A DNA stretch of 64,000 nt from contig JAJPJQ010000024.1 in NCBI GenBank assembly GCA_021324155.1, positions 1 through 64,000 of the forward strand. Direction: 5' to 3'. Position numbers and translations under genes: made by a program. Numbering within the stretch: position 1 is the stretch's first letter; every line of letters begins with the position of its first letter. This DNA comes from Pseudomonadota bacterium. GTDB lineage: Bacteria; Desulfobacterota; Binatia; UBA9968. This document shows positions 11,201 through 29,464 of the stretch, piece by piece. The notes under the pieces are model-generated. The model was not told the DNA's origin, searched no databases, and was given only the letters and a program-made list of their open reading frames with translations.

Positions 11201-12190
11201 ATGCTGAAATTATCGAAGAATTCTGTACTTTTTTTGCTGCTTTTTAGCGCATCGTACGCGTCTGCTGCCGAGCTCGAAAAACTTAACGTCGTTTATTCTT
11301 CGATCGCCGCCGCATCGGTCTCCACCTGGGTGCCCAAAGAAGCCGGCATCTACAAGAAGTACGGCCTCGACGTGAACCTTATCTATGTCGCCGGCTCGCA
11401 GGCGATCACGACGCTGATTTCGGGTGATGCCCAGATAGCCCAGGGCTCGGGCGCCGCCGCCATTCTCGCTCGGCTCAGCGGGTCGGAGGTCAAGATCATC
11501 GGCGATATCATCAATGTGATTCCCATGAGCCTCGTAACCACGCCCGACATCTCCAGGCCCGAGGATCTCAGGGGCAAGACTTTCGGCGTAAGCCGTTTCG
11601 GATCGCTTACCGACCTCGGTCTGCGCAAGGCGGTGAGTGAAATGGGGCTCGACCCGAACAGGGATATCAAGATGATCCAGACCGGCGGCGTGCCCGAAAA
11701 CCTCCTCTTCATGCAGCAGGGAGTGATTAAAGGCGCGCTGATATCTTCGCCGACGCTGGAGAAGGCAAAGGAGCTCGGCTACCGCGAGCTCGTCAACCTA
11801 GCCAATATCAACTACCGCTACCCGGGGACAGCGCTGGTCGCTACCGATGCTTTCATCAAGAATCGGGCGGCGACGCTCAACCGTTTTCTCAAGGCTACGA
11901 TCGAAGGCATCAAATACGCCAAGACCAATCCCGACTTCACGGTGAAGGTGCTCGGGCAATACACGCGCACCGACGATAAGAAGCTGCTCGAAAGCGCCTT
12001 CCGGAGCTACGTCCTCGGATATATCCGTGACGTGCCCACCGTTGCAGCCAATGAGATCGAAAACGCCTTCGAGGACATCGCCTCGCGCAATCCGCGCGCG
12101 AAGAGCGCCGATCAGCGTGCTTTCTATGACACCGCGCCGCTGGATCAGCTCGCCAAAGAAGGTTTCTTAAAGCAGCTCAATCTCCGCTGA
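11201..12190 (+). CDS. NMT1/THI5-like ABC transporter substrate-binding protein
   Basis: Exported binding protein of the SsuA/TauA/NMT1 group, 329 residues. Signal peptide about 1-22 (SVLFLLLFSASYASA). Seen: LNVVYSSIAAASVSTWVPKE, IYKKYGLDVNLIYVAGSQ, SRPEDLRGKTFGVSRFGSLT and the C-terminal pattern FLKATIEGIKYAKTNPD, all standard for the group. Start at ATG 11201 is set by the signal peptide and by the promoter just upstream. It is divergent from the transglycosylase gene and lies 57 bases upstream of the three-paralogue operon, so it may bind a compound those enzymes act on. No cognate permease or ATPase is adjacent. Ligand unknown. Confidence 0.87.
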   Translation: MLKLSKNSVLFLLLFSASYASAAELEKLNVVYSSIAAASVSTWVPKEAGIYKKYGLDVNLIYVAGSQAITTLISGDAQIAQGSGAAAILARLSGSEVKIIGDIINVIPMSLVTTPDISRPEDLRGKTFGVSRFGSLTDLGLRKAVSEMGLDPNRDIKMIQTGGVPENLLFMQQGVIKGALISSPTLEKAKELGYRELVNLANINYRYPGTALVATDAFIKNRAATLNRFLKATIEGIKYAKTNPDFTVKVLGQYTRTDDKKLLESAFRSYVLGYIRDVPTVAANEIENAFEDIASRNPRAKSADQRAFYDTAPLDQLAKEGFLKQLNLR

Positions 12191-12247: not shown

Positions 12248-13939
12248 ATGCGACATTATGCGATCGCAATTGTTGCCGTCTTTACGTCGATGGTTTTTCT
12301 CGCCGACGCGGCGGACAAAGGCAATTATCCCGCGCCGCGCTTTCCGTCTTATCTAAAGCCGCCGAAATCGATTGAGGACGTGATGCCGTTCGCGCGCGCC
12401 GCCGTGCGCCAGACCGGCGGCCGGACGCCGCTCGGCCTCGTCGAGAAGGGAACGGCGACGCTGATCGTCACGGAAGCCCAGGCCGATCCCATGGTCATCC
12501 AGGCGATCAAGCGCGCCTTCGAGGAGCGCGGCGTGAAAGTTTATATGGTGGGTGAGCACGAGCTGCTCGGCATCGGACGCGACGACGCGGTGAAGGCGAT
12601 TCGCACGACCCGCGGCTATACGTCCGAGAAAGGATATATGGAGGCGGCGCGCTGGCTGAACGAGCTTTTCGTCGATCCCGAAGTGCCGAAGAAATGGCTG
12701 AAGGACCGCCGGCCCGATCTCTACAATGCGATCTATGCGACGACGGAGCAGGCGCTGCAGAAAGAGCGCGACATCGCGAAACAGTTCGGCGGCCCGAATG
12801 TCGCCGGCGGCATCATCAAGTTTCTCGACGAGCACCCCGACGTGAAATCGGTCTTTTGGCGCCGCGGCGGCAGGCCGCGTACCGCGCGCCTGCTCAAGCA
12901 GCACAGCGCGAAATTCTTCGGCAATTTCATCTTCGACAACCGCTACGAAGTGATGAACAAGGCCTCGAGCTTTCCCGGGGACGTCTGGCGCCTCGCGGAG
13001 GAGCGCGTACTCGAGGCGATCCCGTGGACCGACCGCGTCGAGGCGTTCGATCCCGAGGGCACCAACATGCACTTCGAGGTGACTGAAGACGAGGCGAAGG
13101 TCTGGGCCTCCGGCGCCTACAATCAGGGCCATCTCTTCCTATCGCCGTATCAGGCGACGGGCCGCTTCCCGTTTTCGGTCGTCGACTACCCTGCGATCCA
13201 AAAAAAATGGAACGCGCCGATCATCAGCCGAGTCAACGGCGTCTTCGCCGGCACGAGCAATCACGCGGGAAATTACCCGCGCATCGAAGTGACCGTTAAA
13301 GACGGCTACGTCGCCGACGTGAAGGGCGGCGGCACTTTCGGTGAGCTGTGGCGCGAGTTTCTGAAATATCCCCACATTAACGATCTCAAGTACCCGTATC
13401 AGGACCGCCCGGGCTACTGGTGGTTCTACGAGGCCGGCCTCGGCACCAATCCCAAATTCTTCAAGCGACCCGACGAGCTTATGGAGGGCAACAATCAGTC
13501 GGAGCGCAACAACGCCGGCGTGATTCACTGGGGCTTCGGCGGCAGCGTGATCCACGATCCCGACAAGCCGGAGGAATCGAAGGCATGGATCGATTTTCCC
13601 AAACAGAACGGCCTGCCGAAAGATCACTGGTGGCACATCCACAACACGCTTGTGACGTATCGCTTGCATGTGCGCGGCACGAAGAATACCTGGATGACAG
13701 TGATCGACAAGGGCGAGATGCCGGCCTACAAGAGCCCCGAGATCCGCGCGCTCGCGTCGCGCTACGGCGATCCCAGCGAAGTGCTTGCCGAAGACTGGGC
13801 GCCGTATCTTCCGGGCATCAACGCGCCGGGCCGGTACGAAGACTGCGCCAAAGACCCGTGGAAAACCGTCTCCGCCATGATCAAAAAAATCGAAGACGGC
13901 AGCTACGAGTATTTTTACCCGGCAGTGAAGAAAAAATAA
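12248..13939 (+). CDS. Exported M29/NicX-like protein, paralogue 1 of 3
   Basis: 563 residues, signal peptide about 1-21 (MRHYAIAIVAVFTSMVFLADA). No close family is recognised. Seen: PAPRFPSYLKPPKSIEDVMP at the mature N-terminus, FPGDVWRLAEERVLEAIPW mid-protein, DPEGTNMHFEV, NYPRIEVTVKDG, FGELWREFLKYP, YEAGLGTNPKFF, NNAGVIHWGFG and DHWWHIHNTL. The order of DxTxxxF, NxPxxEV, ExGxGTNP, xxxHxGxG and HxH/N resembles the M29 aminopeptidase and NicX dioxygenase fold, in which Glu and His residues bind metal; this is my inference. At about 565 residues it is longer than M29 proteins (~360-410). First gene of an operon with two paralogues and an FtsX-type ABC system. Confidence 0.75.
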   Translation: MRHYAIAIVAVFTSMVFLADAADKGNYPAPRFPSYLKPPKSIEDVMPFARAAVRQTGGRTPLGLVEKGTATLIVTEAQADPMVIQAIKRAFEERGVKVYMVGEHELLGIGRDDAVKAIRTTRGYTSEKGYMEAARWLNELFVDPEVPKKWLKDRRPDLYNAIYATTEQALQKERDIAKQFGGPNVAGGIIKFLDEHPDVKSVFWRRGGRPRTARLLKQHSAKFFGNFIFDNRYEVMNKASSFPGDVWRLAEERVLEAIPWTDRVEAFDPEGTNMHFEVTEDEAKVWASGAYNQGHLFLSPYQATGRFPFSVVDYPAIQKKWNAPIISRVNGVFAGTSNHAGNYPRIEVTVKDGYVADVKGGGTFGELWREFLKYPHINDLKYPYQDRPGYWWFYEAGLGTNPKFFKRPDELMEGNNQSERNNAGVIHWGFGGSVIHDPDKPEESKAWIDFPKQNGLPKDHWWHIHNTLVTYRLHVRGTKNTWMTVIDKGEMPAYKSPEIRALASRYGDPSEVLAEDWAPYLPGINAPGRYEDCAKDPWKTVSAMIKKIEDGSYEYFYPAVKKK

Positions 13940-13959
13940 CAACATCGCACGAGGGCTCT

Positions 13960-15654
13960 ATGAATCGATGGCTCGTCGCGCTTCTCATCATCATGGCCTG
14001 CGGCTTATCCGGCAACGCCGCCGAGCAAGCGAAGTATCCCGCCCCGCGGTTTCCCGCCTACCTAAAACCGCCTAAATCGATCGACGACATCATGCCGTAC
14101 GCGCGCGCCGCGGTGCGGCAGACCGGCGGGCGGACGCCGCTTGGCATGGTCGAGAAGGGGACGCTGATCGGCCTTGTCACCGAAGCAATCGCCGACGACA
14201 TGGTCCTGCAGGCGATCGTCCGCGCTTATAAGGAGCGCGGCGTCGAGGCGCGCATCATTCCCGAATACGAGCTCGCGGGCGTGAGCCGCGAGGAAGCCGT
14301 GAAGGCCATTCGCGCGAACAAGTGGTACACCTCCGAGCTCGGCTATATGGAAATCAAGCCGTGGATCACGCAGCGCTTCGCCGATCCGGAGGCGCCGAAG
14401 AAATGGCTGAGAGAGCGCCGGCCGGATATTTACAAGGCGATGTTCGCCAAAGACGACGAGGTCTCGCCGGCATCGCTGGAGATTTTCAAGAAGCTCGCGC
14501 AGCGCAACATGGGCCAGCTGCTCGCGAAGTATCTCGAGGAACATCCAGAAGTCAAAGGCGTCTTCTGGCGCCGCGGTGGCCGGCCGAACACACGCAAGGC
14601 GATGGGCCGTCAGGGCGAAAAGCTCATCGGCAACTTCATTTTCGACAACCATTGGGAGTTGATGAACAAAGCAGCGACCTTTCCCGGCGACGTTTGGAAG
14701 CTCTCGGAGGAGCGCGTGATCGAGCCGTTCGCCTGGGTCGAGCAGGTTCACGTCACCGACCCGGAAGGAACGAATTTCACTTTCTCGGTCAACGAAAAAG
14801 AAGCGTCGGCATGGGCAGAGGGCGCGTATCAGCAGGGGCATCTCTATCTCTACCCGACGCAGGCGACGCGCGGCTTTCCGTATTCGAAAGTGGATTATCC
14901 GGCATGGTCGAAGCACTGGCTCGCGCCGATTCTCATCAAGGTCAACGGCGTTTTCGCTGGCACGAACAATCACTACGGGACGTATCCGCGCATCGAAGTG
15001 ACGGTCAAAGATGGTGTCGTGAGCGACGTCAAGGGCGGCGGAATCTACGGCGACCTCTGGCGCGAGTTCTTGAAGTATCCCAACATCAACGAGGCGCAGT
15101 ATCCTTTTATGCCGGAAAAGGGCTACTGGTGGCTCCACGAGGCCGGCCTCGGGACGAATCCGAAATTTTTCAAGCGTCCCGACGAAAACAAGGAAGGAAA
15201 CAATATTTCGGAGCGCAACAACGCCGGCGTGATCCACTGGGGCTTCGGCTTGAACATGCTGCATGGCCCGAAGGAAGCCGTGCTGCCGAAGGAGTGGATC
15301 GACTTCACCAAGACCGCGAACCTACCCGACGACCATGGCTGGCATATCCATAACCTTTTGCCGACTTATCGCGTCAAGGTGCGGGGCACGAAGGCGACGT
15401 GGCTCACGCTCATCGACAAGGGCGAGCTGACGGCCTTCAAGAGCCCGGAGATCCGCGCGCTCGCGTCGCGCTATGGCGATCCGAACGAGGTTCTGAGCGA
15501 CGACTGGTCGCCGTACCTCCCCGGCATCAACGCGCCCGGCCGATACGACGACTACGCGAAAGATCCGTGGAAGACGGTCTCGACGGTGATCAGGAAGATC
15601 GAGGACGGTAGCTTCGAATATTTTTACCCGGCGACCAGAAAAGCTCGCCAGTAG
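13960..15654 (+). CDS. Exported M29/NicX-like protein, paralogue 2 of 3
   Basis: 564 residues, signal peptide about 1-20 (MNRWLVALLIIMACGLSGNA, cleavage before AEQAKYPAPRF). It is collinear with its neighbours over the full length: ARAAVRQTGGRTPLGMVEKG, VFWRRGGRPNTR, GNFIFDNHWELMNKAATFPG, DPEGTNFTFSV, NYG-type change to GTYPRIEVTVKDG, YGDLWREFLKYP (Asp for the Glu seen in the other two), LHEAGLGTNPKFFKRPDE, NNAGVIHWGFG, DHGWHIHNLLPTY (Gly for Trp). The two active-site-region changes hint at altered activity or substrate. Start at ATG 13960 is set by the signal peptide; 20 bases after the first gene. Enzyme activity unknown. Confidence 0.75.
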   Translation: MNRWLVALLIIMACGLSGNAAEQAKYPAPRFPAYLKPPKSIDDIMPYARAAVRQTGGRTPLGMVEKGTLIGLVTEAIADDMVLQAIVRAYKERGVEARIIPEYELAGVSREEAVKAIRANKWYTSELGYMEIKPWITQRFADPEAPKKWLRERRPDIYKAMFAKDDEVSPASLEIFKKLAQRNMGQLLAKYLEEHPEVKGVFWRRGGRPNTRKAMGRQGEKLIGNFIFDNHWELMNKAATFPGDVWKLSEERVIEPFAWVEQVHVTDPEGTNFTFSVNEKEASAWAEGAYQQGHLYLYPTQATRGFPYSKVDYPAWSKHWLAPILIKVNGVFAGTNNHYGTYPRIEVTVKDGVVSDVKGGGIYGDLWREFLKYPNINEAQYPFMPEKGYWWLHEAGLGTNPKFFKRPDENKEGNNISERNNAGVIHWGFGLNMLHGPKEAVLPKEWIDFTKTANLPDDHGWHIHNLLPTYRVKVRGTKATWLTLIDKGELTAFKSPEIRALASRYGDPNEVLSDDWSPYLPGINAPGRYDDYAKDPWKTVSTVIRKIEDGSFEYFYPATRKARQ

Positions 15655-15667
15655 CCGAGAGGTTCAC

Positions 15668-17368
15668 ATGAAGAAGCGCTGGATCGTTTCCGCGGTCATC
15701 CTCGCATGCGCGGCGTTCGGCTACGTCTGGAGCGCCGAGCAGGCGAAATATCCCGCGCCGCGCTTCCCGTCCTATTTGAAGCCGCCGAAGTCGATCGAGG
15801 ACATCATGCCGTACGCGCGCGCCGCGGTCCGGCAGACCGGCGGACGCACGCCGCTCGGCCTCGCGGAGAAGGGCCAGACGGTTGCGATTTTCACCGAGCC
15901 CAAGGCCGACGAGATGGTCCTGCAGGCCATCAAGCGCGCATACGAAGAGCGCGGGGTTAAAATTCAGATGATCCCCGAGTCGCAGCTTCTAGGCGTGACG
16001 AAGGAAGAGGCGCTGAAATCGGTCAAGGCGCTCCGCTGGTTCACCTCCGAGCAGGGCTACATGGAGGCGCACCGCTGGATTCTGAACGCATTCTCCGATC
16101 CATCGATGCCGAAAAAATGGCTCAAGGAAAAACGGCCCGACCTCTACAAGGCGATGTTCGAGAAAGAGGAGACGCTTTCGCAGGAGCAGGTGGACCTCGC
16201 GCGAAAATTCGGCGGGCGCAATGTCGCGCAGGCGATCGTAAAATATCTAGATCAGCACAAGGAAGTCGACATCGTCTTCTGGCGCCGCGGCGGGCGCACC
16301 AACACACGCCGGCAGATCGAGCCCTATCACAATAAATTATACGGCAACTTCATCTTCGACAACCGCTATGAGCTGATGAACAAGGCATCGACCTTTCCCG
16401 GCGACGTGTGGCGGCTCGTCGAAGAGCGTGTGATCGAGCCGCTACGATGGATCGATCAGGTGCGTGTCAACGATCCCGAGGGCACGAACTTCAGCTTCGA
16501 GGTCGACGAAAAGCAGGCGCTGGCGTGGGCGAAAGGCGCCTATCAGCAGGGCCATCTCTTCATGTTTCCGCACCAGGCGACGGGTCGCTTCCCTTATTCG
16601 GCCGTCGACTACCCGGCATTCACCAAAGAGTATCTCTATCCATCGCTCGTGAAAGTGAACGGCGTTTTCGCCGGCACGGGCAATCACGCCGGCAATTACC
16701 CGCGCATCGAAGTCCATGTCAAGGACGGCTACGTGAGCGAGGTGAAAGGCGGCGGGGTTTACGGCGAGCTGTGGCGCGAATTCTTGAAATATCCCAAGAT
16801 CAACGACCTCAAGTATCCTTATTTCGACCAGCCCGGCTACTGGTGGCTCTACGAGGCGGGCACGGGAACCAATCCGAAATTTTTCAAACGCCCCGACGAG
16901 AACATGGAAGGAGAGAATACCTCCGAGCGCAATAACGCCGGGACGATTCACTGGGGCTTCGGCCTGCGCCTCGACCATGGGCCGCAGGGTCCGGTCGAGT
17001 CGAAGGAATGGGTCGAGTTCGCTAAGCAGAACAATCTGCCGAACGACCACTGGTGGCACATCCACAACACGCTGCCGACTTATCAGGTGAAAATCCGCGG
17101 GACGAAAAGCACATGGGTGACGCTGATCGACAAAGGCGAGGTCGTATCCCTCAAATCGCCGGAGATCCGCGCGCTCGCGTCGCGCTACGGCGATCCGAAC
17201 GAGGTCCTGAGCGACGACTGGGCGCCGTATCTGCCGGGCATCAACGCGCCGGGCCGCTACGAGGACTACGCCAAAGACCCGTGGAAAACCGTCACGATGG
17301 TGATGAAGAAGATCGAGGACGGCAGCTACGAGTATTTTTATCCGAAGAAGACATCGGATAAGCGTTAG
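15668..17368 (+). CDS. Exported M29/NicX-like protein, paralogue 3 of 3
   Basis: 566 residues, signal peptide about 1-22 (MKKRWIVSAVILACAAFGYV, then WSAEQ). Candidate metal ligands, by analogy with the M29 pattern: E348 in NYPRIEV, E367 in GELWREF, E396 in YEAGTGTNP, H428 in TIHWGFG, and H461, H464 and H466 in HWWHIHN. The C-terminal 90 residues (KSPEIRALASRYGDP, PYLPGINAPGRYEDY, KKIEDGSYEYFYP) are nearly identical among the three. Starts 13 bases after paralogue 2 and ends 39 bases before the FtsX-type permease gene. Could be a periplasmic metallohydrolase or an extradiol-type dioxygenase; the sequence does not decide. Confidence 0.75.
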   Translation: MKKRWIVSAVILACAAFGYVWSAEQAKYPAPRFPSYLKPPKSIEDIMPYARAAVRQTGGRTPLGLAEKGQTVAIFTEPKADEMVLQAIKRAYEERGVKIQMIPESQLLGVTKEEALKSVKALRWFTSEQGYMEAHRWILNAFSDPSMPKKWLKEKRPDLYKAMFEKEETLSQEQVDLARKFGGRNVAQAIVKYLDQHKEVDIVFWRRGGRTNTRRQIEPYHNKLYGNFIFDNRYELMNKASTFPGDVWRLVEERVIEPLRWIDQVRVNDPEGTNFSFEVDEKQALAWAKGAYQQGHLFMFPHQATGRFPYSAVDYPAFTKEYLYPSLVKVNGVFAGTGNHAGNYPRIEVHVKDGYVSEVKGGGVYGELWREFLKYPKINDLKYPYFDQPGYWWLYEAGTGTNPKFFKRPDENMEGENTSERNNAGTIHWGFGLRLDHGPQGPVESKEWVEFAKQNNLPNDHWWHIHNTLPTYQVKIRGTKSTWVTLIDKGEVVSLKSPEIRALASRYGDPNEVLSDDWAPYLPGINAPGRYEDYAKDPWKTVTMVMKKIEDGSYEYFYPKKTSDKR

Positions 17369-17407: not shown

Positions 17408-20350
17408 ATGAGCATCAAGTTTCATCTCGCCAAGATTCTCGGCCGGCGCGCGGCGCTCGCCTTCGGCATCGTGACGCTTCTCATTGCCGGGCTGCTCGCC
17501 GCGATCAACGTCGCGTCGCGCCATGCGCTGAAGCTCTACATCGAAGACCAGCTCTCGCGCCTGTCGTGGGACATCGCGCTCTACCAAACGACCGAGTTCT
17601 CCGTATCGAAGGACATCACGCCGCGGCTTCGCGCCGTAAACGGCGTCGAGCGCGTGGAGAGTCTGACGTTCCTGCGCTCCAAGCCGCCGCCGGAGGCGGC
17701 GCTCCAGGTCGATCGCAAGCCGCTCGCGTCGCCGTGGGTGTCGATCCTCGCGGCAACCGACCTGTCGCTGCTGCCTTCCGAGGTGCGGCCGAAAGCGGGC
17801 GACAGCGGCGCGCATCTCGCGCTCGTCGGCCCCGAGCAGCAGATGGGGCATGCCTTTCTCGCGCTGCAGGGCGCGAAGAATTTTTCCGTCATCGTCCACA
17901 GCCACAGCAGAAAAGGCGAGGCGGAGCTTTTCGACCTGCCGGTGCGCGGCGTCGTGCGCCTGGAGCGCGCCGAGGTCAACCGCTATTTCATGGACGAGAT
18001 CGGCACGATCTCGTTCGTGCCGTACATCGGCGTCATTCTGGTCATGCCGCACGATTTCGAACGGCTCCGGTGGTTCGACGCGCTCTCGCGCGGCGCGCTG
18101 GGCGGCTCCGGCGATATCCATGCGACCGCCGGCGAATACCTGCCGGAAGTCATCCATCTCGCGCGCGTCGACCGGAAGAAATTGATTTCCGGCTGGGACA
18201 TCCGCGGCTCGGTCGCCAATCTCAAAAGACTACAGACGGATATCGAAGCGCAGGTTAGCTCGCTCGGGCCCACGATCTTCGTCGATAATGCTATCCTCGT
18301 GCTCTTGAACCGCATGGCCGAGATCTCGCGCCTGCTCTACTTCGCGACGCTCTTGATCGCGATCCCACTGCTCGCGATCGCATGGATGCTCGCGTCGAAT
18401 CTTTCCGCGCTGCTAATTTTGAACGAGCGGCGCAAGCTCGGGCTCATGCGGCTGCGCGGCGTGCCGGGCGCGCTGCTCGGGCAGAGTTTATTGCTCTCGA
18501 TCGGCGCCGGCGGCCTCATCGGCGGCGTGATCGGACTCGTTCTCGGCACGCTGCTGCCGCTGGCGCTTTACGAGGGCGGCGCGCTGTCCTGGACGGTGCT
18601 CGGTCACGTTCAGGGGCCGGTGCAGATGCTTCTGTTTCTCGTTGTCGGGCTCGTTTTCGCGTTATGGTCGAGCCGCAAGCTCGTCCACTACGCGACGACG
18701 ATATCGCCGCTGGAGGCGTCGCGGCGCGTCGCGCCGTCGGAGTCGATGGAAGCGGCAATGCGCTTCGGTTCGCTCCAACTCGCCGCCCTTGCTATCGGTC
18801 TTTACAAAGTCGTGAGCTGGGCGGTCGACTTCGATCCGGCGCGGCGCTTTCCGCCCGCCGAAGATGCGTCCGCTTCGTGGATATTTTTCATCAAGTCGCT
18901 GTTCATGCTCGACCGCGCGCTCGACTTCGTCGCGCTGCCGCTCGTGGTCTACGGCATCGTGACGCTGTTCGTTTCACGCCGCAGTTTGATGACCGCGCTG
19001 CTCGCCGCGGTTTCGCGGGTGCTCGGCGGTCCGCTGCGCCGTCTATCGCTGCGGCACATGTCGTTCAAGCCGCACCGCATCGCAAGCTTTTTACTGATCG
19101 TCGCGCTGATGGCGAGCGTCAGCCTCTATCCGAGCATCGGCGCGAGGTCGTTCGAAGACAAGGCGCTGCGCGGCGCGACCGTCGAGGTCGGGAGCGAGCT
19201 GCACATCGCGCTCGGCCCCGGCGACCTCGTACCGGCGGAAAAGCTCGATCAGGGCCTCGGTCCGCAGGCGCAGGCGCTCCGCAGCGCGGTTAAGGAGCGT
19301 CTCGGCGCCGTGCGTGACGACAACATCGTCTCGGTAGACACGATTATCGAGGCGCTGCTGCCGGGCTTTTTCTTCCCCGGCTACGGCCTCAGCGGCGTCC
19401 CGCTTTATCTCATCGACGACCCGGAGCGCTATCTGCAAACGGTCTTTTACGACGAGAAGCTCGGCGTCGGCGGAAATTTCAGCGGCATCATTCGCGACCT
19501 CAAAACCGAGAAAGTCGCCGCTTCGCCGCCGGTCGCCGAGTTCTGGAATCTGGCGGCCGGAGATCCGATCCTGCTCGGCGCCGATACGGAGAAAAAGCCG
19601 GTGCTTGTTCCCGGCGGAGGCGTGATCGGTTTTTTGCCCGGTATGCCGCCGCGCAGCATCGCCGACCGGCAGAGCTTCGTTTCGGCGCGCATTGATTACC
19701 TGAATTACCTCTCTAGCAACGATGCCTATCTGGTTGCGACGGCGGACAATTCGAAGATCGCTAACCTCAAGGTGCTCGTGCCCCGCGTTCTGCTGCTCGT
19801 GCGGCTCAAGCGCGAGCAGGGCGCGGACGCTGCGGTGCAGGCGATCGCCGGCGCGCTCCGCGCGCGGCCGCTGGAAGTACGCGTGCTCGGCCGCGAGCTC
19901 AAGAAGATCGGCGGCGACATGTTCATCTTTCTCGCGCTCGAGAACATGCGCATCTATCTCGTCGGCGGCATGCTGCTCGCGCTGATCGCGATCGGCGCGA
20001 TCGCGCTGACGAATTATTTGGAGGACCGGCGCACGCTCGGGCTGCTCCGCGTGCGCGGCGCGTCGCCCGGGCTTATGTTCAAATTTTTCGCGTTGATGCT
20101 GCTGGCGCCGGCGCTCGCGGGTCTCGTGATCGGCGTCGTGATCGCGGCCATCGCGGGTTTCGGACTGACGAATCTCATATGGGATCTCCGCGAGATCAAG
20201 TCCGTCGTCCATCTCCTTCCGACGCATCTCGTGCTTTCCGGGGCGACCGTTTGGATCGGCGCGGGACTCTTCTTCGTGATCGGCGGCATCGCCCTCTTGT
20301 TCAGCCTGTGGGTATTCCGTCGGTCGGCGCGGGAAAGAATGCTCGAGTAA
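17408..20350 (+). CDS. FtsX/MacB-family ABC permease (two-half, YbbP-like)
   Basis: 980-residue permease with two FtsX-like halves, as in YbbP and fused Lol-type permeases. Such systems (type VII ABC) do not move solutes across the inner membrane; they push lipoproteins or periplasmic substrates by mechanotransmission. Seen: N-terminal helix (about 15-33), a large periplasmic domain (to ~290), helices around 300-430 with the coupling motif RRKLGLMRLRGVPGALLGQS, helices near 495-520 and 555-575, a second periplasmic domain (~576-840), then helices near 845-960 with RRTLGLLRVRGASPGLMFKF. Directly follows the three exported paralogues (39 bases) and precedes its ATPase (16 bases), so those exported proteins are candidate cargo or partners. 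Confidence 0.85.
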   Translation: MSIKFHLAKILGRRAALAFGIVTLLIAGLLAAINVASRHALKLYIEDQLSRLSWDIALYQTTEFSVSKDITPRLRAVNGVERVESLTFLRSKPPPEAALQVDRKPLASPWVSILAATDLSLLPSEVRPKAGDSGAHLALVGPEQQMGHAFLALQGAKNFSVIVHSHSRKGEAELFDLPVRGVVRLERAEVNRYFMDEIGTISFVPYIGVILVMPHDFERLRWFDALSRGALGGSGDIHATAGEYLPEVIHLARVDRKKLISGWDIRGSVANLKRLQTDIEAQVSSLGPTIFVDNAILVLLNRMAEISRLLYFATLLIAIPLLAIAWMLASNLSALLILNERRKLGLMRLRGVPGALLGQSLLLSIGAGGLIGGVIGLVLGTLLPLALYEGGALSWTVLGHVQGPVQMLLFLVVGLVFALWSSRKLVHYATTISPLEASRRVAPSESMEAAMRFGSLQLAALAIGLYKVVSWAVDFDPARRFPPAEDASASWIFFIKSLFMLDRALDFVALPLVVYGIVTLFVSRRSLMTALLAAVSRVLGGPLRRLSLRHMSFKPHRIASFLLIVALMASVSLYPSIGARSFEDKALRGATVEVGSELHIALGPGDLVPAEKLDQGLGPQAQALRSAVKERLGAVRDDNIVSVDTIIEALLPGFFFPGYGLSGVPLYLIDDPERYLQTVFYDEKLGVGGNFSGIIRDLKTEKVAASPPVAEFWNLAAGDPILLGADTEKKPVLVPGGGVIGFLPGMPPRSIADRQSFVSARIDYLNYLSSNDAYLVATADNSKIANLKVLVPRVLLLVRLKREQGADAAVQAIAGALRARPLEVRVLGRELKKIGGDMFIFLALENMRIYLVGGMLLALIAIGAIALTNYLEDRRTLGLLRVRGASPGLMFKFFALMLLAPALAGLVIGVVIAAIAGFGLTNLIWDLREIKSVVHLLPTHLVLSGATVWIGAGLFFVIGGIALLFSLWVFRRSARERMLE

Positions 20351-20366: not shown

Positions 20367-21065
20367 ATGGCAGAGAACGGGTTTTTCGTCAATCGCGGCG
20401 TCGACGTCAAGGTCGACGGACTCGCGAAAAGCTACCGCACCTCCGCCGAAGAGGTGCGCGCGCTCAAAGGCATCGACTGGCGGATCACCGCCGGCGAAGC
20501 GATCGCGCTCATGGGACCGTCGGGTTGCGGCAAGACGACGCTGCTGAATATTTTGGGCGGTGTCGATCACGCCACCGCGGGCGAGATCGTCGTCGGCGGC
20601 GATACGCTCGGCGCGCTCGGCGAGCGCGAGCTGGAGCGCTATCGGCTTCTCAAGATCGGCTTCGTTTTCCAATTTTTCAATCTCATCCCGACTCTCTCCG
20701 CGTTCGAGAATTTAGAATTGCCGATGCTGATTGCCGGCGTCGCGATCGCCGAGCGCGCGCGCCGCTGCCAGGGGCTGCTCGGCATGGTCGGGCTGGCGGA
20801 GAAGATGCATAAGCGTCCCGAGGAGCTTTCCGGCGGTGAGCAACAGCGCGTGGCCGTCGCCCTCGCGCTGGCGAATGACCCGGCGCTGATCCTCGCCGAC
20901 GAGCCGACCGGCAACCTCGATACCGAGAACACGGCGTCCATTTCGGCGCTGTTCGTTTCGCTCGCCGAGCGCTACGGCAAGACGGTGATCATGGCCAGCC
21001 ACGATCCCAAGGCGGTCGAGCAATTCAGGAAGGTCTACCGTATGCGCGACGGCAGGTTCGAATAG
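20367..21065 (+). CDS. ABC transporter ATPase, LolD/MacB/YbbA type
   Basis: ATPase for the preceding permease, 232 residues. Seen: Walker [13 protein letters not shown] (about residues 51-62), Q-loop [19 protein letters not shown], signature [15 protein letters not shown], Walker [15 protein letters not shown], switch histidine in MASHDP. [17 protein letters not shown] and DEPTGNLD are characteristic of the LolD/MacB/FtsE group and fit an FtsX-type partner. A ribosome site GGAGG lies 9 bases before the ATG. It ends the operon that begins at 12248. Substrate unknown. Confidence 0.93.
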
Positions 21066-21137: not shown

Positions 21138-21214
21138 CGGACCCCAGATGATTGGAAAGGCTTTGTGTGGTAGCGGCATCTGCGCGGGCAAACCCCTTTC
21201 CAACGGTCCTTTTA

Positions 21215-23176
21215 ATGTCGACGCTGCCAATTTATGGTGAACATTTCGGCTTAACGAGCCAGCCTTTTTCCGTCAGTCCGGACCCAAAATTTCTCTACGC
21301 CAGTCCGAGCCATAAGGAAGGCTTGGCGCAACTGAGCTATGGCATCCAGGCGCGCCGCGGTTTCGTGGTGCTCACGGGCGAGGTCGGCACCGGCAAGACG
21401 ACGCTCATCCGTTCTCTGTTGCAACAACTCGACGACGGCCACACCCGCATCGCGTTTATTTTTACACTGATTCTGAATATCCGCGACTTGCTGCGGACCG
21501 TCTGCGAAGAGTTCGCGCTTGTCGCTCCGAAGGACGCTCCCAAAGATCCGCACGACTATCTCGTGCTCATCAACGAATTCCTGCTGGAATCGTACAAGAA
21601 AAATGTCGGCGTCGCGCTGATTGTGGACGAGGCGCAGAACCTCTCGCACGAGGTGCTCGAAGGAGTGCGGCTGTTGTCGAATTTCGAGACTGCCGAAGAT
21701 AAGCTGCTCCAGGTGCTGCTCGTGGGTCAGCCCGAGCTCGACGCGCGCCTGGCCGAGCCCGAGCTGCGTCAGCTGAAACAGCGCGTAGCACTACGGTGGA
21801 ATCTGAGTCCGCTGAACTTGGCCGAATGCGAGGAATACATCGCGCGGCGTCTCGCGATCGCGGGTGGCCGCGGCACGATTTTTCCCGTCGAGACGATCCG
21901 TGCCGTCTACGCCTATTCAGGCGGCATTCCAAGGCTCATCAACGTGCTCTGCGACAACGGCATGCTCACTGCGTATGCGCTCGACCAGCAAAGCGTGGGG
22001 GTAGCGATTATCAAGGAGGTCGCCCACGATCTCAACCTTAGCTTGACGCCACAAAAACCCGTTCCCCTAAGTACTGCGACGATTCCGATCAAGTTTCCCG
22101 AAGCGCCGGCGGCCGATGCGGAGCCGAAAAGTCCGCCAGCCACGACCACCGCGCCGATTTCACCGCCTCGACTGGTCGATGAAAATCGTACCGCCGCCGC
22201 GGCTACCCGGCCTCGGCCGATGCCGGAGATGCAATCGGCCGGTAAGGCAGCTGTGGAGCGCGCGCAACCGAAGACTCTCGCGCCGATTTCACCGACGCGG
22301 CGGGTCGAGGAAAATAATACTGTCGCTTCGGATGCCCGGCCTCGATCAATGACACAGATGCAATCGGTAGCTAACGCAGCGATGGAGCGCACGCAACCGA
22401 ACACCGTCGCTCCGATTCCACCACCTCGACGGGTCGAGGAAAATCACGCCGTCGCCGCGGACGCCGGGACTCAGCCAAGCACGCAGATGCAATCGGCCGC
22501 TAACGCGGATTCGGAGCCCGCGCCGCCGACGATCGTCGCGCCGATTCCGGCGCCGCTGACGATAGAGGAACGTGGCGTGGTCGCTGCAGAAGCGGAGTCT
22601 CGGCCGGTGCCGCATATCCAATCGGCTGCAAGGGCAGCGCTGGAGGCCGCACAGCAGCGCGCCGCCGAGATTCAGCAGTCGCAGGCGAAATCCCGTGAGA
22701 TGCGCGAAAGACCTTTTCCAAAACCGACTCTCGCACCGAAAGTCGTATCCGCTTTAAAGTCCGAGCCCGCTGCAAAGGTCGTTGCCGAGCCGGAGCCGGC
22801 GGTCGTAGCGAATGAGCCGGAAGCAAAAATCATCGAAGCCGACATAAAAAGATCGGAAGAAATAACCATCGTACCCAAGACAAACCAACCGGAAGAAAAA
22901 GCTGTCGAACACGCCGCGAGCGTCGCCGAGGTCGTTCCGCAGCGATCCATACACCGCATGCTCGCGGCGCTGACGGACGCGATGGGGCCGATGGCCTCAG
23001 TGGTGGTTCGCGATCATGTGGATGCTCTGGGCGAGTCGATGGACAATTTTCCCAAGCAGCGATTCCGCGAGCTGGTGTACTCGACGAGTGGCGAGATTCT
23101 CAGCGAGCCGCTGAGAACGCGCTACGAGAATGTCATGTCGGAAGAGGTCCGCGCGCTCGGTGCATTCGAGGAGTAA
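21215..23176 (+). CDS. ExeA/GspA-like AAA ATPase with 43-residue repeats
   Basis: 653 residues. The N-terminal ~270 residues are an ExeA/TniB-type AAA ATPase: YGEHFGLTSQPFSVSPDPKF start, Walker A TGEVGTGKTTLIR (residues 54-66), Walker B VALIVDEAQNLS (~140-151), sensor VLLVGQPELDARL, and the GGIPRLINVLCDNGML box. In ExeA it helps secretin assembly with a peptidoglycan-binding partner, but no membrane helix or wall domain is visible here. Residues 313-484 are four 43-residue Ala/Pro/Glu-rich repeats, then an acidic linker, then a compact C-terminal domain (AALTDAMGPMASVVVRDHVD ... QRFRELVYSTSGEILSEPLR). ATG 21215 is preferred over an in-frame TTG at 21152. Shares one base with the next gene. 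Confidence 0.82.
   Translation: MSTLPIYGEHFGLTSQPFSVSPDPKFLYASPSHKEGLAQLSYGIQARRGFVVLTGEVGTGKTTLIRSLLQQLDDGHTRIAFIFTLILNIRDLLRTVCEEFALVAPKDAPKDPHDYLVLINEFLLESYKKNVGVALIVDEAQNLSHEVLEGVRLLSNFETAEDKLLQVLLVGQPELDARLAEPELRQLKQRVALRWNLSPLNLAECEEYIARRLAIAGGRGTIFPVETIRAVYAYSGGIPRLINVLCDNGMLTAYALDQQSVGVAIIKEVAHDLNLSLTPQKPVPLSTATIPIKFPEAPAADAEPKSPPATTTAPISPPRLVDENRTAAAATRPRPMPEMQSAGKAAVERAQPKTLAPISPTRRVEENNTVASDARPRSMTQMQSVANAAMERTQPNTVAPIPPPRRVEENHAVAADAGTQPSTQMQSAANADSEPAPPTIVAPIPAPLTIEERGVVAAEAESRPVPHIQSAARAALEAAQQRAAEIQQSQAKSREMRERPFPKPTLAPKVVSALKSEPAAKVVAEPEPAVVANEPEAKIIEADIKRSEEITIVPKTNQPEEKAVEHAASVAEVVPQRSIHRMLAALTDAMGPMASVVVRDHVDALGESMDNFPKQRFRELVYSTSGEILSEPLRTRYENVMSEEVRALGAFEE
22151..22666 (+). 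repeat. 129-base in-frame tandem repeat, four units
   Basis: Units begin at 22151, 22280, 22409 and 22538, each with GC(G/T)CCGATT(T/C)C and coding for 43 residues that open with API(S/P). Every unit keeps an (D/E)EN or EER core near residue 10 and a MQSA or IQSA core near residue 28, with drift increasing toward the last unit. The exact 129-base spacing shows duplication rather than convergent low complexity. Confidence 0.92.
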
Positions 23177-23946: not shown

Positions 23947-25458
23947 ATGAAAACGATCACAATCAATTCGCAACGGCGCGCGCTCAAGTCCGCGCTCGCG
24001 TGCATTTTCACTCTGGCGCTGTTTTGCGCCGGGCCGGCGACGGCCGCCGAGAAAGCGCCGTCGCTGGAAAAAATCAGAATCGCCTACAGCAGCATCTCCG
24101 GCAATCAGATCCCCGCCTGGGTGGCATATGAAAAAGGATTCTTCCGCAAAAACGGCTTGGATGCCGAGCTCGTCTTTATCGAGGCCGGCAGCCGCGCGGT
24201 GAGCGCGCTGCTCAACGGCGATGTCGCCATGGCCCAGATGGCTGGACCGTCGGTCATTCAGAGCCGGCTTCAGGGACAGGACGTCGTTATCATCGCGGGC
24301 TTTCTCAATACGATGGACTATCAGCTGATGGTGCACAACAGCATCACCAGGCCGGACCAGCTCAAGGGAAAGACGATGGCGGTGAGCCGCGTCGGCTCGT
24401 CGTCCGACTTCGCGACGCGGTATGCGCTCAACAAGTACGGCCTGATACCCGATAAAGACGTGACGATCGTCGAGATCGGCAGCCAGCCGGCCCGCTTCGC
24501 CGCGCTCGAAGCGGGCAAGATCCAGGGCGCGATGGTGACCGTGCCGCTGACGCTCAAAGCGAAAAAGCTGGGCTTTCACGCGCTCGCGGATCTCCAGATG
24601 CTCGGACTCGAATACCAGCACACCGCGCTCGTGACGAGCCGGGCTTTGATCAAGTCGAAGCCGGAGGTAGTGCGCAACGCGATGAAGTCGATGGTCGAGG
24701 CGATCCATTATTACAAGACGCAGCGGGCCGACGCTTTGGCGGTGCTCGGAAAATATCTTAAAGAGAATTCGCCCGAAGCGCTCGACGAGACCTACGAAGG
24801 CATCGGCCTCGCGCTGATTCCCGAGAAGCCGTACCCGACGCTACGCGGCATTCAAATCATGCTCTCCGAGTTGTCGGCCAAAGACCCCAAGGCGCAGAAG
24901 GCCCGTCCCGAGGAATTCGTCGACACGAGCTTCATCAAGGAGCTGGACGCCTCCGGCTACATCGACCGTCTATACAAATCGCAGCAGCCCGTCGCCGCGG
25001 CGGCTTCCGCCGATCAGGGCCGCGCCGCCACGCCCGCGCCTCCGGCAAAGGAAAAGCCGGCCGTCGTGGCGAAGACGACGAAGGAAAAGCCGGCGTCGCC
25101 CGATAAATCCGCTGCGGCCGACAAGAGTGCTTCAACCGGAAAAGTTACGACAGCCGACAAGTCTGCGGTATCCGACAAAGCAGCGACAGCCGACAAGACT
25201 ACAAGCGCCAACAAAACTGCGCCAGCGACGAAAACGGCTCCGCCTCCTGCTGCGGAGACGTCCGCTGCGCTGCCTCAAGAATATACTGTGAAGGCCGGTG
25301 ACACGCTCTCGAAGATCGCTGGGCAATTTTACGGGACGCAGCAAAAATGGCAGAGGATCTTTCAGGCCAACGCCGAGACATTGAAGAACCCCGACTACAT
25401 TTTCATCGGACAGAAGATCACCATTCCTGCGGACGAAGCGTCGCAGAAGAAGGGGTGA
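23947..25458 (+). CDS. NMT1-like substrate-binding protein fused to a C-terminal LysM domain
   Basis: 503 residues. Signal peptide about 1-33 (ending GPATAAEK). Residues ~38-340 are a full NMT1-type binding domain (KIRIAYSSISGNQIPAWVAY, FFRKNGLDAELVFIEAGSR, GKTMAVSRVGSSSDFATRYA). Residues ~355-435 are a low-complexity Lys/Ala/Ser/Thr/Asp linker with a loose DKSA/DKTA repeat. Residues ~441-497 are a LysM domain (EYTVKAGDTLSKIAGQFYGT, then QRIFQANAETLKNPDYIFIG, then QKITIP). LysM binds peptidoglycan, so this binding protein may be wall-tethered. The fusion is open and in frame across 25069-25265 without a stop. Lies 18 bases after the HAMP gene with which it is probably co-transcribed. Confidence 0.88.
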   Translation: MKTITINSQRRALKSALACIFTLALFCAGPATAAEKAPSLEKIRIAYSSISGNQIPAWVAYEKGFFRKNGLDAELVFIEAGSRAVSALLNGDVAMAQMAGPSVIQSRLQGQDVVIIAGFLNTMDYQLMVHNSITRPDQLKGKTMAVSRVGSSSDFATRYALNKYGLIPDKDVTIVEIGSQPARFAALEAGKIQGAMVTVPLTLKAKKLGFHALADLQMLGLEYQHTALVTSRALIKSKPEVVRNAMKSMVEAIHYYKTQRADALAVLGKYLKENSPEALDETYEGIGLALIPEKPYPTLRGIQIMLSELSAKDPKAQKARPEEFVDTSFIKELDASGYIDRLYKSQQPVAAAASADQGRAATPAPPAKEKPAVVAKTTKEKPASPDKSAAADKSASTGKVTTADKSAVSDKAATADKTTSANKTAPATKTAPPPAAETSAALPQEYTVKAGDTLSKIAGQFYGTQQKWQRIFQANAETLKNPDYIFIGQKITIPADEASQKKG

Positions 25459-27764: not shown

Positions 27765-28076
27765 TCACGTCTTGAAATCCGGATATCCGGTCTTGGTCGC
27801 CTTTTCCTTGTAATCCTTGATCAGCTCTTCGCGGGGCATTTCGTGCGCCCAGATCGCCTCGGTGAAGCTCCAGAGCGTGAACGGGTGCGCGCCCAAAGCA
27901 TAAAGCTTGCCGTAGTCGCGCGCGGCGAGCGCCGCACGCTCCTCGTCGCTGAGCTTGAGCGGCTGATCTTTCTCCCAATTGTCGACGAAAGCGGCGGGAT
28001 TCGCCTTGTATTCCTTCTCGAAGTCTCCGTTCATGTTCACCTGGTGGATGAACTTGTTAAGGACATATTTACTCAT
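27765..28076 (-). CDS. Extradiol dioxygenase alpha subunit, LigA-like
   Basis: 103-residue all-helical protein of the LigA (protocatechuate 4,5-dioxygenase small subunit) family; in the two-subunit enzyme the alpha chain caps the active site of LigB. Seen: YVLNKFIHQVNMNGDFEKEY (residues 4-23), FVDNWEKDQPLKLSDEERAA split over 30-50, and GKLYALGAHPFTLWSFTEAI (about 56-75), all standard for LigA. It is the last gene of a leftward cluster and lies 13 bases beyond the Spy-like gene, which separates it from LigB. Converges on the glycosyltransferase gene with a 2-base gap. Confidence 0.87.
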   Translation of the reverse strand: MSKYVLNKFIHQVNMNGDFEKEYKANPAAFVDNWEKDQPLKLSDEERAALAARDYGKLYALGAHPFTLWSFTEAIWAHEMPREELIKDYKEKATKTGYPDFKT

Positions 28077-28089
28077 AATACGCTCCTGG

Positions 28090-28635
28090 TTAATGCTGCA
28101 TGTGGTGCTCTACGCCGGCTGCAGCCGATGTATAGCCTCTCAGCTCGTCGTACTTCGCCACCTGTTCGGGCGTTAGGATTCTTTTCTGCTCCAAATGCGC
28201 GCGGAGGTGCGCAGCGCGTAGCTCGCCTTGAAGCCGGCCGATGTCGGCGACAGTGGAGTCGAGCTTGGCCTTGTCGATGGAACCGGTCGCGAACAGTTGA
28301 TCCAGATCGCGCTCTTTCTCGACGATGCGCGTGCCTAGCGGGATCGTCTCGCTTAGCATCGTCTTGCGAATGGCTTCCGTGTGCTGCTTCTGCGCTTCGG
28401 TAAGCCTCAACCGATCGGCCAGTTCCAAAACGTGTATCGGTCCGGGATAGTGATTCAGCTCGCCGGCCTTGGCGAGCGCCATGCCTTGGCCGTTGAGATA
28501 CCCGTGGATCTCGTCGTCGGAGAGCGCCTTGATGTCGCGCGACTGCTGGCCGGCGTAAGGGGAGGGGTGTTGCTGAGCGATGGAAAATGACGGCGCTAGC
28601 AGCATGAAAAGAAAAAGTAGTTTACGCATTGTCAT
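28090..28635 (-). CDS. Spy/CpxP-like periplasmic protein
   Basis: 181 residues, signal peptide about 1-22 (MRKLLFLFMLLAPSFSIAQQ). The body is helical with two motifs of the Spy/CpxP/ZraP LTxxQ type: ADRLRLTEAQKQHTEAIRKT (about residues 72-91) and KRILTPEQVAKYDELRG (about 151-167). Members are periplasmic chaperones or metal-stress proteins. The N-terminal half (GYLNGQGMALAKAGELNHYPGP) and the C-terminal HHMQH are found in small secreted proteins of metal-resistance loci. The ATG at 28635 overlaps the LigB stop by 14 bases; ATG 28629 is an alternative. Its place between LigB and LigA is unusual. Confidence 0.8.
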   Translation of the reverse strand: MTMRKLLFLFMLLAPSFSIAQQHPSPYAGQQSRDIKALSDDEIHGYLNGQGMALAKAGELNHYPGPIHVLELADRLRLTEAQKQHTEAIRKTMLSETIPLGTRIVEKERDLDQLFATGSIDKAKLDSTVADIGRLQGELRAAHLRAHLEQKRILTPEQVAKYDELRGYTSAAAGVEHHMQH

Positions 28636-29464
28636 ACCTAAAAAACGGAATAGCCGGCCAGCCCGCGTCGAGGCCTTCGGCGTAGGCAGGCTTTTTCGCG
28701 TTGGCGACGCCCATCATCATGATGAAGTTCAAAAAACCGTGCGTCATGTTGCCGGACTGCCTGAGTTGCGCGAACGAGGAATTGTTGACCGCGCCGTTGA
28801 CGTCGCCCTGCGCAATCCAGCCGACGGCGGTCGCGTCGAAGTTGGGATCGAGCAGGTGGCGCTCGAACTGCTTCGGCCCGCCGATCTCGAGCGACAGATG
28901 GCCGCTCACGATGACCGCGACGCGTTTCTTCGTCTCGAGACTGTCGATGACGGTGCGGATCGCCTGCCCGACCTGATAGAAGCGCTTCGGCCGCGGCAGC
29001 GGCGGCGCGATGCAGTTCGTGAGAATCGGAACGATCGGGATATCCATGTCGGGACGGATGAAGGTGAGCGGCACGATGATCGAGTGGTCGATCGTGAGCT
29101 CGTTCGAATAAGCGAAGTCGACGCCGCGGTCGAAGGCGCCCTCCATGATCGCATCCGCCAGCTCCACGTCGCCGGGAATCTTATGATAGGGCAGGCCGAA
29201 CTCGCGCGTCTCGTCGTAAAACGTGCCGGCGTACGCGTCCATCTTGCCGATCATGAAGGCCGGCATGTTGTCCATGAAGAACTGGTGCAGGTGATCGTTG
29301 CCGATCGTCACCAGCACGTCCGGCTTCGCCTCGGCGAGCTTCGCCTTCATCATCGCGATGCGCTCGATAACTTTTTCCGCGCCGGGCGGACGCGTTGGCT
29401 GCTTAAAGAGCCGCGGCATGAAGGGATTGTGCGTGATGCCGATAATCGAGACGATCTGCGCCAT
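28622..29464 (-). CDS. Class III extradiol ring-cleavage dioxygenase, LigB-like catalytic subunit
   Basis: 280-residue LigB-fold protein. Type III extradiol dioxygenases open catechol-type rings with non-haem Fe(II). Seen: the N-terminal histidine in IIGITHNPFMPR (H12), VTIGNDHLHQFFMDN with the second iron histidine region (H57/H59), FGLPYHKIPGDVELADAI, the base histidine in ELTIDHSIIVPLTF, and VIVSGHLSLEIGGP. All expected His/Glu ligands seem present. A ribosome site AGGAG precedes the ATG; the MDR gene ends 12 bases upstream. The partner LigA is two genes downstream. The aromatic substrate is not readable. Confidence 0.88.
   Translation of the reverse strand: MAQIVSIIGITHNPFMPRLFKQPTRPPGAEKVIERIAMMKAKLAEAKPDVLVTIGNDHLHQFFMDNMPAFMIGKMDAYAGTFYDETREFGLPYHKIPGDVELADAIMEGAFDRGVDFAYSNELTIDHSIIVPLTFIRPDMDIPIVPILTNCIAPPLPRPKRFYQVGQAIRTVIDSLETKKRVAVIVSGHLSLEIGGPKQFERHLLDPNFDATAVGWIAQGDVNGAVNNSSFAQLRQSGNMTHGFLNFIMMMGVANAKKPAYAEGLDAGWPAIPFFRYDNA

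Follow-up and report, generated by a model that had tools for sequence, protein, structure and literature searches.

Three tandem, predicted exported proteins of the M29 aminopeptidase/NicX superfamily are linked to genes for a predicted Type VII ABC complex in a Binatia genome

The window, the 64,000-nucleotide stretch of DNA that was analysed, covers positions 1 to 64,000 of contig JAJPJQ010000024.1 from a bacterium of the Binatia lineage UBA9968 (assembly GCA_021324155.1). It carries three consecutive plus-strand genes encoding related proteins with predicted export signals, followed by genes for an ATP-binding cassette (ABC) permease and its ATPase. Copy 1 (12248-13939, 563 aa), copy 2 (13960-15654, 564 aa) and copy 3 (15668-17368, 566 aa) are intact open reading frames (ORFs) with ATG starts, and the gaps between them are 20 bp (copies 1 and 2) and 13 bp (copies 2 and 3). 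The proteins share 66-68% identity over their full length, far beyond chance, and a search of the genome finds these three as its only copies of the family. Sequence reading and hydropathy place predicted signal peptides at 12248-12310 in copy 1 (MRHYAIAIVAVFTSMVFLADA, with an AxA-type end), 13960-14019 in copy 2 and 15668-15733 in copy 3. The maximum 12-residue hydropathy of these Sec-type hydrophobic N-termini is 2.6-3.0, compared with 1.4 or less in the short relatives described below, and judging by sequence all three proteins are predicted to be exported through Sec-type signal peptides. A preliminary description of the locus, made from the DNA letters, had noted three collinear genes of these lengths with signal peptides, and the ORFs, identity and hydropathy agree with it. 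The shared sequence blocks that it quoted are present, except that copy 1 has NYPAPRFP instead of KYPAPRFP, and both variants that it singled out in copy 2 (GDLW and HGWHIHN) are found. Its contrast between an exported tandem set and the usual single cytosolic M29 gene is upheld; M29 enzymes are mostly cytosolic.

Copies 1-3 belong to the M29/NicX superfamily. No Pfam or NCBIfam model matches them or a family of short relatives (hmmscan; for Pfam, the three proteins and nine relatives), PDB sequence searches give nothing significant whether a single protein or the family profile is the query, and a PF02073 (M29) search of the same genome finds only an unrelated locus, below the cut-off. Since these direct searches were empty, indirect profile-profile and fold comparisons were used. 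The reference set of NicX-like/aminopeptidase-T-like proteins was assembled from PF02073 search hits within the phylum, and it recovers NicX (E 5e-31), PepS and AmpS from the PDB. Profile-profile alignment to this NicX-like set extends over more than 320 columns and has a probability of 99.1-99.8% for the combined profile, 98.1% for the long exported family alone and 98.8% for the short family alone (E 1e-13 to 4.5e-29), while reversed-sequence controls reach at most 0.6%. Against M29 proper the combined profile scores 88% and the long family alone 0.6%, and these lower values make the NicX-like group the nearer relative.

The AlphaFold model of copy 3 (pLDDT 77, pTM 0.80) leads to the same superfamily. 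All eight Foldseek matches in the PDB at E<0.001 are AmpT, PepS, AmpS or NicX. The M29 structures 2ayi, 4icr, 4ics, 4icq and 1zjc match at E 7e-9 to 3e-8, and NicX, a 2,5-dihydroxypyridine 5,6-dioxygenase (PDB 7CN3/7CUP), matches at about 1e-8. The TM-scores of the M29 matches are modest (0.29-0.37 by query), suggesting that the domain orientation of copy 3 may differ from that of M29 or is uncertain. The preliminary description had drawn a parallel with M29 and NicX from the order of motifs, and its proposed checks included two computational ones: an HMM-HMM comparison with the PF02073/NicX side, which gives 98-99.8% for the NicX-like set with controls below 1%, and structure prediction with a fold search, in which M29 aminopeptidases and NicX alone are significant. 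The parallel stands as a superfamily relationship but not as membership of M29 or NicX as defined, since other residues stand in place of the catalytic Tyr and of two or three ligands.

The residues that bind metal in the known enzymes were transferred to the family through the alignments, with the numbering checked (the AmpS chain is offset by three). The published AmpS residues are E253, E319, H348, H381 and D383 together with Y355, and alanine mutation shows each residue of this EEHYHD set to be essential in a listerial M29 enzyme (PMC7023490). NicX holds its Fe with H265, S302, H318 and D320, and R293 positions the ligand Asp (PMC7910607). In copy 3, with all codons on the plus strand, H296 (16553-16555, in QGHLFMFP) lies at the M29 ligand Glu (AmpS E253, in TEEVFTAP), and E396 (16853-16855, in EAGTGTNPK) lies at both the M29 bridging Glu (AmpS E319) and NicX His265. 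R421 (16928-16930, in SERN) takes the position of NicX Arg293, and H428 (16949-16951, in IHWGFG) that of the M29 His (AmpS H348). H464-x-H466 (17057-17065, in HIH) corresponds to M29 H381-x-D383 and NicX H318-x-D320, with the Asp replaced by His. The M29 series E-E-H-Y-H-D therefore reads H296-E396-H428-(L/V/M)435-H464-H466, with L435 in copy 3; the positions of AmpS E319, H348 and H381 are kept, and E253, Y355 and D383 have become His, L/V/M and His. The NicX ligand positions read E396, G430, H464 and H466, so that H318 alone is retained, H265 being replaced by Glu, S302 by Gly or Ala and D320 by His. The NicX Arg is present, seven residues before H428, with the spacing of Arg293 in NicX.

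H296, E396, R421, H428, H464 and H466 are invariant in all 17 aligned long and short sequences, and position 435 varies. All five M29 metal positions are occupied by His or Glu and so are metal-capable. If invariant Asp, Glu and His residues were randomly scattered, the chance of all five landing on ligand positions would be about 5e-10, a rough figure because the alignment itself was used to place them. Model confidence is low in parts of the site region (397-408 and 418-422). As candidate ligands, E396, H464 and H466 have the 2-His-1-carboxylate composition of NicX with two positions exchanged, and H296 and H428 could be available to a second metal in the M29 fashion. Of the four motifs previously read as metal sites, ExGxGTNP (E396), IHWGFG (H428) and HIHN (H464/H466) do lie on M29/NicX positions. 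NxPxxEV does not; it is NYPRIEV, residues 343-349 of copy 3, on a different strand, its Glu348 is Leu, Lys or Arg in relatives, and the M29 Glu has its real counterpart in H296 (QGHLF). Copy 2 retains every invariant candidate ligand despite its GDLW and HGWHIHN changes, and for this reason they do not suggest loss of function.

The FtsX-type ABC permease gene (17408-20350, plus strand, 980 aa) and the LolD/MacB/YbbA-type ABC ATPase gene (20367-21065, plus strand, 232 aa) follow copy 3. The ATPase matches YbbA 9GE6 at E 8e-47. The permease has one Pfam FtsX match, and the FtsX core is repeated across its two halves. Its hydropathy predicts ten transmembrane (TM) segments, with TM1-2 and TM7-8 each separated by a large periplasmic loop, a YbbP-like topology. 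It is highly divergent, with no match in NCBIfam and no YbbP match in single-sequence or profile searches of the PDB, where only LolF appears (E 0.002).

The order exported gene, permease, ATPase is found in the window and in four other genera of the taxonomic family (G502, G504, G505 and G515). G035, a genome of another class, also has an exported gene followed by a permease and ATPase pair (41% and 53% identity). On a Xanthobacteraceae contig the pair follows a single exported gene with the ATPase before the permease (43% and 63% identity), and on an Acidobacteriota contig a permease follows the exported gene and the contig ends there. Permease searches find hits in 5 of the 148 genomes of the class and in 2 of the 395 sampled for the phylum, which are six different genomes, and the exported gene is adjacent each time. 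The Xanthobacteraceae and Acidobacteriota contigs were found through the exported gene and so are no test of this reverse direction. The linkage, overlooked by the preliminary description, is the stronger functional clue.

The nearest parallel for this arrangement is E. coli YbbAP-TesA, where the periplasmic esterase TesA is bound by a Type VII ABC complex with the same topology, which has been proposed to supply it with membrane compounds (PMC12646458). Both systems combine a gene for an exported enzyme, here a putative one, with a LolD/YbbA-like ATPase and an FtsX-type 10-TM permease that has two large periplasmic domains, which in the window are predicted from hydropathy. They differ in that TesA is a serine GDSL esterase whereas the proteins here are putative metalloproteins of the M29/NicX fold, and in the divergence of the permease. 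Compared with NicX, the long family adds the signal peptide, a helical insert (about residues 104-196), a loop (303-327) and the ABC partner.

The long exported family is rare, occurring in 2 of 395 sampled phylum genomes. In the class search (148 genomes) full-length or near full-length members are present in only six genomes, all of one taxonomic family, and the remaining matches to the exported proteins belong to the short family. Single long members occur in one Acidobacteriota metagenome-assembled genome (MAG) and one Xanthobacteraceae MAG. The records of some relatives are MAGs labelled 'Deltaproteobacteria bacterium', and a search of the plasmid collection gave no matches. In one acidobacterial member a clear lipobox (GLFGC) is present and would hold that protein at the membrane.

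The three copies have different histories. The tree joins copy 1 to G505_a and G515_a, distal copies from two other genera (support 100/99), and copy 3 to permease-proximal copies from four other genera (97/96). These groupings indicate that two main paralogues, 'a' (copy 1) and 'b' (copy 3), predate the genera and that both were retained. The 'b' lineage is kept in 5 of 5 class genomes that have the permease. As an old duplication kept in several genera, 'a' and 'b' probably differ in substrate or function. Copy 2 stands by itself on a longer branch, its orthologue is absent from the sister genomes examined, and it is an added, divergent variant. The dN/dS is about 0.07-0.11 for copies 1 and 3 against their orthologues and 0.16-0.26 in comparisons involving copy 2 (NG86, with dS partly saturated); these values are well below 1, so all three copies look constrained. 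The dS among the window paralogues (0.88-1.08) is below that of sister-genus orthologues (1.39-2.39), though the tree makes the duplication older, and partial gene conversion among the paralogues is possible.

The short family (450-460 aa) occurs in the same taxonomic family, and its C-terminal catalytic part is about 35-44% identical to the long family. L017, L020 and L031 have all the invariant candidate ligands and are 29-31% identical to copy 3 over the whole alignment; in contrast to the long family, the short relatives are without the signal peptide, the helical insert and the FtsX/LolD genes. Short-family members L017-L036, L073-L078, L081 and L082 are cytosolic-looking and have no Pfam or NCBIfam assignment. 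Their neighbours include genes for a polysaccharide deacetylase (together with LeuCD), DUF427, arylmalonate-decarboxylase-family, hydantoinase B or molybdenum hydroxylase proteins, and the family is a candidate new ring-cleavage or amidohydrolase family. The LeuC/LeuD neighbours were considered as a hint of a maleate-hydratase pathway and rejected, because sequence reading places LeuA- and LeuB-like genes in the same cluster in L082, which is probably leucine biosynthesis. A separate NicX-like protein is encoded beside molybdenum hydroxylase genes in the genome of the window (L039/L080, C20:102570-103034), and in it Arg and Glu (RLE) replace the HxD ligands.

The reading favoured here, with somewhat better than even confidence in its parts taken together, is that copies 1-3 are exported, metal-binding enzymes that form a branch of the M29/NicX superfamily not classified before and are partnered with the adjacent Type VII (FtsX/MacB/YbbP-like) ABC complex. 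They are predicted to sit in the periplasm or to face it, with one or two divalent metals probably held by E396, H428, H464, H466 and H296, and would serve the complex as its enzyme on the periplasmic side. ATP-driven movement of the permease would extract a membrane-associated or hydrophobic compound, or present it, to the exported metalloenzyme. The enzyme would then process this compound, most likely by metal-activated hydrolysis, as YbbAP serves TesA in E. coli. Ring-cleaving iron dioxygenases are not typically periplasmic, which makes a hydrolase likelier than an oxygenase.

Several points weigh against this reading. The M29 catalytic Tyr is absent, which makes M29-like peptidase chemistry doubtful. 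The AlphaFold model of the permease is poor (pLDDT 44), and given also the weak LolF match, the likeness to YbbP is judged from the topology, the gene order and the ATPase. No permease or ATPase gene lies near the q-type long copies (G506, G505 C284 and G515 C130). TesA is single in YbbAP-TesA, whereas one to three exported copies occur here. The enzyme role, the metal site and the complex are all deduced from sequence, a model and linkage.

The strongest alternative, though an unlikely one, is that copies 1-3 are exported NicX-like oxygenases, in which a mononuclear Fe(II) on H464, H466 and E396 would carry out periplasmic cleavage of an aromatic or N-heterocyclic ring. The closest reference set is indeed the NicX-like group and not M29 proper, R421 matches the Arg that positions the iron-ligand Asp of NicX, and the short cytosolic-looking relatives adjoin molybdenum hydroxylase, hydantoinase B and arylmalonate-decarboxylase-family genes. 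The window also has a LigAB ring-cleaving dioxygenase pair some 10 kb downstream, and four other genomes have the LigB orthologue close to long-family genes, but the LigB proximity may reflect vertical synteny. The NicX ligands H265, S302 and D320 are all changed, nothing evident corresponds to the NicX substrate residues E177 and H189, and Fe(II) ring-cleaving dioxygenases are typically cytosolic, whereas copies 1-3 carry export signals. It is quite improbable that such an oxygenase, with an exchanged 2-His-1-Glu iron site, oxidatively cleaves, in the periplasm, the ring of a compound that its own Type VII ABC complex has drawn out of the inner membrane; if true, both the type of reaction and the coupling would be previously undescribed.

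That copies 1-3 have lost catalysis and are non-enzymatic, metal- or ligand-binding envelope proteins serving the ABC complex as adaptors or sensors is improbable. This reading would fit the loss of the catalytic Tyr, with neither known activity set complete, as well as the tandem copies beside a Type VII ABC complex and the substrate-binding protein gene directly upstream, and EnvC is an adaptor-type partner of FtsEX. However, the candidate ligands are strictly invariant, even in non-exported short proteins without ABC context, and a pure adaptor needs none. Least probable are secreted metallo-aminopeptidases trimming periplasmic peptides, with the ABC transporter handling peptides: the fold matches AmpT, PepS and AmpS, and E396, H428 and H464 fall on M29 ligand positions, but three of the six essential EEHYHD residues have changed (Glu to His, Tyr to Leu, Val or Met, and Asp to His), Pfam gives no M29 match and the long family alone stays at the 0.6% probability given above for M29 proper.

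Other genes in the window lie around this cluster. The gene directly upstream of copy 1 (11207-12190, plus strand, 57-bp gap) encodes an NMT1/THI5-like substrate-binding protein; it was rejected as a core part of the system because it is not at that place in relatives. The gene after the ABC ATPase (21152-23176) matches an XrtA/PEP-CTERM-associated ATPase at E 2e-81, below the curated cut-off, and a relative of it occupies the same place in L069. The 503-aa product of 23947-25455 has an unusual make-up, in which an NMT1-like substrate-binding domain is fused to a LysM domain at the C-terminus. The LigA- and LigB-like ring-cleaving dioxygenase genes are at 27765-29464 on the minus strand, with an ADH-like gene and an NMT1-like gene, and the close LigB orthologues near long-family genes are in G504, G505, G506 and G515.

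Returning to the favoured reading of exported metalloenzymes with an ABC partner, proteins without a Pfam or NCBIfam model share a fold that serves both peptide hydrolysis and oxidative ring cleavage, and their strictly conserved candidate ligands make a third, distinct metal-ligand set in this fold. The linkage to the permease and ATPase suggests that enzyme and transporter form an envelope system not yet described. Should the ABC link hold, YbbAP-TesA would no longer be the only kind of enzyme-loaded Type VII ABC system, and the second kind would come from lineages known mainly through metagenomes. The locus offers a direct test of the extent to which Type VII ABC machines supply enzymes in the periplasm.

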